Positions 1,632 to 4,726 of a DNA stretch of 64,000 bases are shown piece by piece (within the stretch, counting starts at the first letter, position 1; each line of letters begins with the position of its first letter). A program made the translations under genes and the position numbers. The DNA comes from Nautilus pompilius. Taxonomy: Eukaryota > Mollusca > Cephalopoda > Nautilida > Nautilidae. The notes below the pieces were generated by a model that was given only the letters and a program-made list of their open reading frames with translations, had not been told where the DNA came from and made no database searches. The stretch covers positions 1-64,000 of the forward strand of contig JACATO010001120.1 of the NCBI GenBank assembly GCA_018389105.1. Direction: 5' to 3'.

Positions 1632-1729
1632 TCACCTGTTGCACCTGTAGGCGTTACGAAAACCTAGCGGCAAGCACATGAGGTTGTCCAATCTAACAGG
1701 TAAGGACAGTCTCCCGTGTTCACTACTGT
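1632..1729 (-). CDS. Luqin neuropeptide precursor, last coding exon (two-cysteine C-terminus)
   Basis: The exon follows a good acceptor (CCCTCTGTTTGCAG, AG at 1731-1730) and its first two bases complete the split codon left by the phase-1 donor at 4585, giving Asn48. It then runs open for 31 codons to TGA at 1634-1632. The peptide ends in CLPLGFRNAYRC plus Asn-Arg: two cysteines separated by exactly ten residues (C66 and C77), the hallmark of the C-terminal region of luqin precursors across bilaterians. This match is what ties the exon to luqin rather than the splice signals alone. The joined precursor is 79 residues, at the short end for the family. A TATAAA-type poly(A) hexamer lies at 1119-1114 on this strand; no AATAAA was seen closer. 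A donor-like GGTGAG overlaps the stop codon but is not needed. Remaining doubt: an additional small exon in the 2.9-kb intron cannot be excluded without transcript data. Confidence 0.82.
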
Positions 1730-4584
1730 CTGCAAACAGAGGGACGTCGTCTGCTCCGTCTTGAAGATCTAGAATTAGATACAAACATACGGGTTCTAAA
1801 TGTTCACGGGCGCGTTTTGGCTGGCCGACGAATGAACCGTGACTAGTTTTTATTAGACTATTTTGAATAAGCTCTTTGATGTCCAACACGGACAAACTCG
1901 AGGCGTGTAACAAAAGAAGAGGAAAAGAAATTCTAATGTTGGGAATCGTTTATCGTTTCGCTTCTCATTTGAGAAGTATGCGCTACTCGATCAGGGGGAG
2001 TGAATCGAGACAGTCCTATATATGCAACGTTTTGGCCTGAGACGTTTTCCACAGACGGCGTACATTTTCGGCGAAATATGGACACCGGTGCAGCCAACAA
2101 ACGCTTTCCGCTTTGAATAATATATTCATTCCCATGTCACCCTCTGAGCGGAACCAGTGCTGGCATCGAGGCTGCGCTTGCTTAGATACTAACGCAAAAC
2201 GCCAGACTATCCTCGTGGACGCTGTGTTTTAGGTTCTCTGTCCATTTTTTTTTTTTTTTTAAATATTCCTCGCTAACAAGTGCCTTCAGCCGCGCTTCCG
2301 CTCCGATGCCAGGAAATGAGGCAACCGGTGAGATCAAAGTGCCGTGCCACGTGAAAAAGTCATCAATGGCTCACGGATGCTGACGGCGAGCGAATCCAAA
2401 AGGTATTGGTGCTTTACCATCTAGAACGAGGTAAGGGAGTGACGTCGCGCGACTGCGTCTCGTTCGCGCGCTCCGAGAAGTATCGTCCTCGTTTTCGGAA
2501 AAAAAAAAAAAAAAAAAAAAAAACACTTCCGCCCGCCCCACCCCCGACGATAAAATGGCGGAGATTTAGTACTGATGTTTCGATCTCGGAGGTAAAGAGC
2601 GCCGTTAATTAACGAGACGGAAGAAGTTGTTTTCTTTCATCGATCTTTTCCGAAGATGGGTGAGGTGGGTGAAGGCGGCGTCGGCGACAGGATTGCCGGG
2701 TACCGTAAGGGAAGCACAGTTGCGATGTCCGTAAGCTGTACGTTAAGAAGACATCAGTTTTTTGGAAAATGTCAAAAAAGATATCATTAAGCGATGACAT
2801 CACAGCAGGTCAATAGAGAGACTAGTAAGCAAAACTTCTTAGTTTCGAGACGGAAAGTGAAGATTATGGCATTTTTGCTCCGAAGTCATCAGGTGTCTCG
2901 AGTGAGAGCCTCTGGCACGAATGGCAGCTCGTCACCAGCTCCGGGCCATTCCATCGCTTTGCGAATGCGACTCCTAGTTGCTGCAGTGTTCACCGTAGCA
3001 CAGAATGCTTTTCAATGGCATCTTGTAGATGTAACAAAGGTGTTCAGTTGGATGAAGGTCTGGAGAATGAGCTGGCCATTGATTGTCTCTTGCTTCAGCT
3101 ACTGCTCGATTATCTAGGCACATCGTGTACAAGAGTTTTTCATCCATGAGAATGAATTCATCCCCAACAGCGCCATCGTATGGCCTCGGATCTTAACTCG
3201 AACCTGTTATAACGTTCCAGAGGTCCGTCAGCCCAGCCAGTCACTCTTCGCACCAGCGTCACTCATGTCGTTCAGCAAAGTTGGCATCTTAAATCCTCTC
3301 TCGCGGCCTTCTATGGAGTTTAACACGCCGATCTGTATGTAAAGGGGCAAGCAAAATCCAGTCTTGTCCTCCAAAAATCACGGGGCTTCCAGTCTTTGAC
3401 GATCCACCCTTCATGGTCTACTGCCCACTCCTGCCACGCCCGCCCTCAGGTAGCCCGCAGTGTGCGGATTCAAACTTTTCTTGGCTACAAACCATCATTC
3501 CCAAAGCCAATTTCGGAAACGTTGCGTTGAGACATTGACACCTGTTACGTTTTAAAGGTCATATTTCCACTGAATTGTTCGAAAAACGCTTTATTCTCGC
3601 CCCCCCCTGGCCACGCATTGTTCACTCGAGTACTTCACGCCGAGCCTGGGGTCTAGAAGTCACGATCTGGTTTACGCTGATTCATCTGCCACACGATGTC
3701 GAGATGCTCCCGTCCTTGGCGCAACAATCTCTCTAGAAAGATCTCTTCCGCCGTCGTGCCATTCTGAATGCATCGGCATTTGAAAAAATGACCAATTCGG
3801 TAATGAAGCAGCAATTCTTAAATACCAAAACAGGCAGCGTAAAGGGCACTGGCATCTACGTGGAAAAATTAGGGGATCCCAACTCGCTTGAGGAGATTCG
3901 GTCACTCTATAGGTGAGGATCTCAAAGGGAATGCTAGAGTTGTGGAACGAAAGTAAAATTTGCCAGGATCTGATGTAATAATAACTCGTGGTTTACTTAT
4001 TAATTTTCTACGAGTAAACAGAGCAGAAGGTAAACGGTAAGAAACCTCCGCGATTGCTCGGACTTCAGCAGACTGATTTATCATTTAGCTCACCAGCCTC
4101 TGGAAGACCTTACGAGTTCATCGCCAGTAGCTTCGAGCGCAATGACGTTATGGCTCTACGCATAAGAAACCGGGCATGGGTTGGTCTTAGTAAGTCCGTC
4201 CGTAGGAATACGGCTGAAGTACAGAAGTATTCAATCGGGTCGGAACAGCCGTAATTGTAATTAAGGTAGCTTGCGACGCGAAACTCCAGTCGGCGTGAAC
4301 TGATGATTGAAGTTCAATTACAGAATTTAAATTTCAATGAGAGAAATAAAGCACTCTTCTACTATTACTTTTAAAGAAGTCACCCGTGCCCCTAATTTTG
4401 GGTGAGTCAGGGTTATAAGAGAAAACCCTATATGCCAACATCTCTAAACCGTGTGCCGTGTTTGTTATAAAAACCGAGAGAATTGGGCTGCTAACTGAAA
4501 GTGGAGGTCGCTTCCCGTCGGCTTTATTGCCAGTAACATAAAACTGATTAATGCAGGTATCAGGCGATTCAAACGGATCCTTAC
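1730..4584 (-). other. Intron between the luqin coding exons
   Basis: Phase-1 intron of about 2.9 kb, donor GTAAGG at 4584 and acceptor TTTGCAG at 1730. It holds a poly(T) tract near 2247-2262, a poly(A) tract near 2499-2523 and a decayed Tc1-like transposase (2870-3560). No other exon with a family signature was found. The reading frame of the upstream exon stays open into the intron as far as a TGA at 4334. Confidence 0.75.
2870..3560 (-). mobile_element. Decayed Tc1-like transposase, inside the luqin intron
   Basis: Minus-strand translation, jumping frames and stops, follows the order of a Tc1/mariner transposase: a helix-turn-helix-like stretch (TGVNVSTQRFRNWL near 3550-3500), a segment with AVGDEFILMDEK near 3175-3130 matching the second catalytic Asp block, then NQWPAHSPDLHPTEHL near 3090-3040 matching the conserved WPA-SPDLNPIEHLW block of the third catalytic acid, and a C-terminal IRARGSHSRH near 2950-2890 matching the IRARGGHTRY end of one Tc1 subgroup. 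Several in-frame stops and frameshifts show it is dead. Terminal inverted repeats were not identified. It lies in the same orientation as luqin and is removed with the intron. The family call is secure from the SPDL block; the subfamily is inferred. Confidence 0.8.
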
Positions 4585-4726
4585 TTGTGTGAGATAGAAG
4601 TACCAGAAGGGGGTCGATTCTTTTGCCGAACCGCCCCTGTGGCCGCCATTGTGGTGCGCCATTCCCTAGGGTCGCTGTCACGAGGAAGATCGCTGCCACG
4701 CAGACAATAAGCTCCGTTGCCCTCAT
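4585..4726 (-). CDS. Luqin neuropeptide precursor, first coding exon (signal peptide + luqin)
   Basis: This exon encodes the start of a luqin-type neuropeptide precursor. Reading the minus strand from the ATG at 4726, residues 1-23 form a signal peptide with a hydrophobic core (LIVCVAAIFLV) ending in GNG. The mature peptide APQWRPQGRF follows directly (residues 24-33), then G34 as amide donor and K35-R36 as the dibasic cleavage site. Luqins of molluscs share the C-terminal core WRPQGRF-amide and sit immediately after the signal peptide, exactly as here. A pyrimidine-rich tract ending in TTTCAG places a splice acceptor at 4730, leaving only ATA before the ATG, so most 5' UTR lies in an upstream exon. 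The exon ends at 4585 before GTAAGG, in phase 1. Known biology: luqin is secreted by neurons and acts on a G-protein-coupled receptor related to the arthropod RYamide receptor. The next coding exon is at 1729-1632. Confidence 0.9.

Follow-up and report, generated by a model that had tools for sequence, protein, structure and literature searches.

A luqin-type neuropeptide precursor gene of Nautilus pompilius with a probably internal paired-cysteine exon

Introduction

Precursors of the luqin family are processed by removal of the signal peptide, cleavage at a KR site and amidation, and the released peptide acts on a luqin-type receptor. A pair of cysteines ten residues apart is described as a hallmark of the family, and the same accounts state that the function of the cysteine-bearing precursor peptide is unknown (PMC7041311, PMC5940834). 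Among molluscs, luqin has been reported from each of the eight class-level taxa (PMC6425005). The decapeptide APQWRPQGRF is given for the luqins of Lottia, oysters and scallop (PMC4208409, PMC4200219, PMC5996578), with the Lottia peptide being a prediction and the Crassostrea peptide being listed as DGAPQWRPQGRFa (PMC4208409). Brachiopod and nemertean luqins are described as likewise ending in WRPQGRF. In the scallop, luqin directly follows a signal peptide of 23 residues (PMC5996578). For the oyster, a cysteine motif CVESNVPGLFKC with an aromatic-basic-Cys ending is presented, and luqin is described as virtually undetected by mass spectrometry in oyster tissue (PMC4200219). One luqin precursor from a starfish carries at least seven residues after a C-terminal cysteine (PMC9974683). 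Gastropod luqin is described as cardioexcitatory, with suggested roles in reproduction and in water or salt balance (PMC4208409). The exons of the Aplysia luqin gene are labelled E1–E5, and skipping of one of them is described as causing a frame shift and the loss of the cysteines.

Here, we describe a luqin-type gene of Nautilus pompilius. The analysed stretch of DNA (the window) comprises the first 64 kb of its contig, starting at contig base 1, and belongs to an assembly of 727.6 Mb in 2,558 contigs. An initial annotation of this DNA had proposed a complete luqin coding sequence of 79 residues in two exons. The peptide, the leader and the cysteine pair of that proposal agree with known luqins, and the gene probably continues beyond the stop codon that was chosen.

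Results

Exons and joined reading frame

The first coding exon and the intron that follows it were placed as below; here and in the text, slashes within sequences mark borders.

4585..4729, minus strand: luqin exon with the start codon (donor 8.34 bits, acceptor 8.09 bits, mechanical exon scan)
4628..4657, minus strand: codons of the predicted mature decapeptide APQWRPQGRF (residues 24–33), followed by G34-K35-R36, counted from the ATG at 4726
1730..4584, minus strand: phase 1 intron of 2,855 bases, based on splice-like sites and the joined frame

The ATG start codon occupies positions 4726–4724 of the minus strand, and the coding part of exon 1 extends from 4726 to 4585 (142 nt). It encodes a signal-like peptide of 23 amino acids, the decapeptide, GKR and a short tail, in the reading order MRATELIVCVAAIFLVTATLGNG-APQWRPQGRF-GKR-IDPLLVLLSHT. 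The leader is hydrophobic and ends GNG/A at the start of the decapeptide; it was judged to be a signal peptide by eye. The GKR is a predicted cleavage and amidation site. Exon 1 is bordered by an acceptor-like site TTTCAG/ATAATG on its 5′ side and by a donor CAA/GTAAGG after 4585. Splice sites were scored with matrices of general metazoan frequencies, which were not trained on this genome; on this scale, 19 of the 3,399 GTs of the minus strand are equal to or better than the exon 1 donor, itself included, and 76 of 4,047 AGs reach or exceed its acceptor.

The acceptor of the second exon, TGTTTGCAG/ACA at 1729 (in a longer stretch CCCTCTGTTTGCAG/ACA), scores 8.47 bits, a value equalled or exceeded by 60 of 4,047 AGs. 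From there, the frame is open through MCLPLGFRNAYRCNR to a TGA at 1634–1632. Joined in phase 1, exon 1 and positions 1729–1632 yield a frame of 240 nt, which encodes 79 residues if the TGA is the stop codon and contains 43 residues after the KR. Provided that the predicted splice is correct, this frame carries two cysteines, C66 and C77, separated by ten residues and followed by NR directly before the TGA. Both the signal-like peptide followed by APQWRPQGRF-GKR and the C-x10-C exon joined to it by phase-1 splice sites at 4585 and 1729 are thus present as initially annotated.

A six-frame scan of the window for the motifs W.PQG, PQGR[FY] and R[FY]G[KR][KR] gave matches at the luqin locus only. 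A search of the 727.6-Mb assembly with the joined protein returned two matches among four scored candidates, one per exon and both at this locus; no second or allelic gene copy was found by this search. The 3′ flank (420–1760) matched itself and, over 67 bases at 82%, contig C1276. Since there is no further match beyond these 67 bases, we see no allelic contig that would extend the gene. The joined protein matched no Pfam family at E≤1, and neither it nor nine open frames of the window matched above the curated cut-offs, three frames giving weak sub-threshold matches. For six additional pieces, one of them the transposase-like fragment described below, Pfam gave one weak sub-threshold match and none above cut-off, and there were no hits in Rfam at the gathering threshold or with ARAGORN (bacterial settings).

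The proposed stop codon lies within a candidate splice donor

The 3′ end of the joined frame allows a different reading of exon 2, in which three elements overlap or adjoin:

1636..1729, minus strand: paired-cysteine exon in the preferred model, internal, of 94 nt, beginning in phase 1 and ending in phase 2, with the last bases TGC AAC AG/ (acceptor 8.47 bits, donor 11.31 bits)
1632..1634, minus strand: TGA, the stop codon of the initial annotation, within the candidate 5′ splice site CAG/GTGAGA (sequence and donor scoring)
1630..1635, minus strand: GTGAGA, the candidate donor of an additional intron (donor scoring)

The TGA belongs to the sequence AACAG/GTGAGA, whose donor at 1635 scores 11.31 bits against a possible maximum of 12.83 and against 8.34 for the donor of exon 1. 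It ranks third among the 3,399 GTs of the minus strand, and only 6 of 6,938 on both strands reach its score, itself included. Over the whole window, a donor of such score coincides with 4 of 413 GTGA sites and with 6 of 6,624 stop triplets. We also scanned both strands mechanically for internal exons (acceptor ≥6.5 bits, donor ≥7 bits, 60–700 nt, open frame). With these thresholds, which were fixed after the luqin sites had already been scored, the scan gave 33 rows, several of them overlapping, with the cysteine exon in 8th and exon 1 in 20th place; the cysteine exon thus passes as internal on both sides. Because the stop codon sits within a near-consensus 5′ splice site, exon 2 looks like an internal exon (1729–1636), and the completeness of the coding sequence could not be confirmed. 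It is doubtful that the coding sequence ends at TGA 1634–1632, and the gene probably continues past it. A third exon, which may lie outside the window, would then contribute residue 79 (R or S) and whatever residues come after it. Residues beyond the second cysteine would fit the starfish precursor mentioned above.

The high score has to be read with some caution. A plus-strand donor-like site CAGGTAAGG at 1700, inside the cysteine exon, scores 12.04 bits and thus exceeds the donor at 1635, so a high donor score by itself need not mark a place where the luqin gene is spliced. The plus-strand site itself may reflect chance or an antisense transcript.

Between the TGA and the contig end, no AATAAA was found; this region contains an ATTAAA at 738 and eight matches of rarer polyadenylation signal variants elsewhere. 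Ten acceptors of at least 3 bits precede the contig end, none of which is convincing as the start of a third exon. The best are located at 52 (11.26 bits, beside CT repeats) and at 1268 (7.38 bits), and the true third-exon acceptor may lie beyond contig base 1.

On the 5′ side, the acceptor-like site ending just before ATAATG makes a 5′ untranslated exon likely. Farther upstream lies one stretch with a perfect donor:

7676–7769, minus strand: open stretch with an ATG at 7769, ending in CAG/GTGAGT at 7675 (12.83 bits, donor scoring)

This donor possibly marks the end of a 5′ untranslated luqin exon or of another gene.

Chance level of the paired-cysteine exon

How often a comparable exon arises by chance was determined for AG sites of compatible phase among the 4,584 bases that follow the exon 1 donor, using 300 dinucleotide shuffles and 25 other tiles of the window of equal size. 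C-x10-C after such an AG, with a stop within 40 residues, occurred in 169 of 300 shuffles and 14 of 25 tiles; with the stop at most five residues after the motif, 63 shuffles and six tiles still qualified. When an aromatic-basic-Cys ending was added, one shuffle of 300 and none of 25 tiles remained, and with a pyrimidine tract, applied to the shuffles only, the count fell to 0 of 300. The last two counts overstate the significance, because both conditions were chosen when our sequence and a single motif from oyster, VCVESNVPGLFKCY (PMC4200219), were already known. The intron contains a second frame of this kind, read from the AG at 3728, with C-x10-C two residues before a stop. It lacks the aromatic-basic ending, its acceptor scores –7.11 bits, and we take it to be a chance occurrence. 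Since C-x10-C is frequent by chance and occurs a second time in this intron, the motif alone is weak evidence, while the combination of features is good evidence.

Other features of the intron and the window

If intron 1 is retained, the frame stays open over 4334–4584 (minus strand) and encodes a precursor of 130 residues in which luqin is present and the cysteine exon is replaced by other sequence. Further elements are:

3078–3037, minus strand: frame WPAHSPDLHPTEHL within the luqin intron, without a Pfam match
53798–55694, 35807–36145 and 8011–8175: three tandem arrays of CT- or GA-rich units, all with TGACGTCA-like cores
28870–29549: tandem array of a 38-base unit, 17.8 copies with 86% matches

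The intron frame resembles Tc1/mariner transposases. The three arrays with the common core may belong to a single satellite family present in two orientations.

Discussion

Identity and proposed organization of the gene

Judged from its sequence, the gene is well supported as a luqin-type neuropeptide precursor, because both family hallmarks are present, a signal-like leader immediately precedes the peptide, and Lottia, oysters and scallop have the identical decapeptide. Three features of lophotrochozoan luqins were found: WRPQGRF-G with a basic cleavage site (APQWRPQGRF-GKR, residues 24–36), an N-terminal position directly after the signal peptide, here a leader judged by eye, and a C-terminal cysteine pair ten residues apart (C66/C77, given the predicted splice). 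A chance origin of the decapeptide with its GKR is practically ruled out. The identity proposed in the initial annotation therefore holds. The gene is an ordinary member of the family, and its presence was to be expected, since luqin has already been reported from all molluscan class-level taxa.

We consider it likely that the gene encodes the luqin precursor of a spiralian, most probably a mollusc, that its cysteine exon is internal, and that it has at least one further 3′ exon and at least one 5′ untranslated exon. After removal of the signal peptide, the product of the first coding exon would release APQWRPQGRF-G-KR. Cleavage at the KR would be the task of a prohormone convertase; once a carboxypeptidase had removed the basic residues, conversion of the glycine into the C-terminal amide would give APQWRPQGRF-NH2, the predicted ligand of a luqin-type G-protein-coupled receptor. 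What is left of the precursor would constitute a PRMP-like peptide, with the cysteine pair probably disulphide-bonded. The cysteine exon 1729–1636 is probably internal, with at least one further exon supplying the last residue or residues and the 3′ UTR; upstream of exon 1, one or more 5′ untranslated exons are probable.

Alternative models

The alternatives differ from this model in parts only, so that their odds overlap with its own. The closest is the gene as initially annotated, with just two coding exons, a stop at 1634–1632, a precursor of 79 residues and a 3′ UTR downstream. Its frame is indeed open to the stop, with the cysteine pair two residues before it; the ATTAAA at 738 or the rarer signal variants could serve polyadenylation, and even a third exon joined at the acceptor 1268 would leave the protein unchanged (AGG-TAG). 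We nevertheless regard this model as unlikely, since its stop codon lies within the third best donor of the strand and AATAAA was not found between this stop and the contig end. Of the initial claims, the length of 79 residues thus agrees with the joined frame up to the TGA and becomes doubtful with the stop itself. That two exons make up the complete coding sequence is not supported, considering also the internal appearance of exon 2 and the acceptor-like site before ATAATG.

Two further alternatives concern the connection between the exons. Another small exon could lie between them, or a farther acceptor could be used, for example at 1768, which would give 92 residues. The Aplysia gene with its exons E1–E5 speaks for a missed exon, as does the length of its PRMP, with 76 residues against the 43 that follow the KR here. 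Against this, the only phase 1-1 candidate of up to 400 nt with both sites at ≥5 bits is a weak one (3059–2994) inside the transposase-like frame, and the acceptor at 1768 scores 4.35 bits compared with 8.47 at 1729; we hold either variant to be improbable. Even less credible, to the point of being very improbable, is that 1729–1632 is an open frame by chance and that the true cysteine exon is located elsewhere or past the contig end. The high background of C-x10-C before a stop and the second such frame at 3728 are in line with it. It is opposed by the rarity of correct phase, near stop and aromatic-basic-Cys ending in shuffles and tiles, and of these with a pyrimidine tract in shuffles, albeit for conditions set post hoc, and by the good splice-like sites that flank the cysteine exon, in contrast to the poor acceptor at 3728.

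The Nautilus locus adds one luqin gene together with its genomic anatomy, and it shows how a neuropeptide gene of short exons can be closed too early, probably at an intronic stop.

Comparison with known luqin genes

For Lottia, oysters and scallop, sequences were compared over the decapeptide and, in oyster, over a cysteine motif. According to the published descriptions, Lottia gigantea, Crassostrea gigas, Pinctada fucata and Patinopecten yessoensis have an amidated APQWRPQGRF and a C-terminal cysteine pair, as proposed here. The luqin of Patinopecten yessoensis also resembles that of Nautilus in immediately following a 23-residue leader, a signal peptide in the scallop and signal-like here, and the oyster motif CVESNVPGLFKC and CLPLGFRNAYRC of Nautilus both end in aromatic-basic-Cys. 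The precursors of ecdysozoan RYamides and ambulacrarian RWamides, as described, share the C-terminal cysteine motif of the superfamily with the Nautilus frame, whereas its RFamide end and WRPQG core are of the lophotrochozoan type.

Luqin (L5-67) of Aplysia californica with its PRMP is described as similar to the Nautilus gene in having one luqin copy, a C-terminal C-x10-C and several exons. It differs in the peptide (APSWRPQGRF instead of APQWRPQGRF), in the length of the PRMP (76 residues versus 43 or a few more) and in its exons E1–E5, compared with two coding exons seen here. By analogy, skipping of an internal 94-nt cysteine exon would shift the frame and remove the cysteines, as described for Aplysia. 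One could go further and imagine the donor-embedded stop as a tissue-specific splice-or-stop switch, with skipping of this exon giving a luqin-only isoform without cysteines, a conjecture to which we assign little probability. If both uses occurred in a tissue-specific way, comparable to the exon skipping reported from the Aplysia kidney, this arrangement would represent a regulated feature of long standing in molluscan luqin genes.
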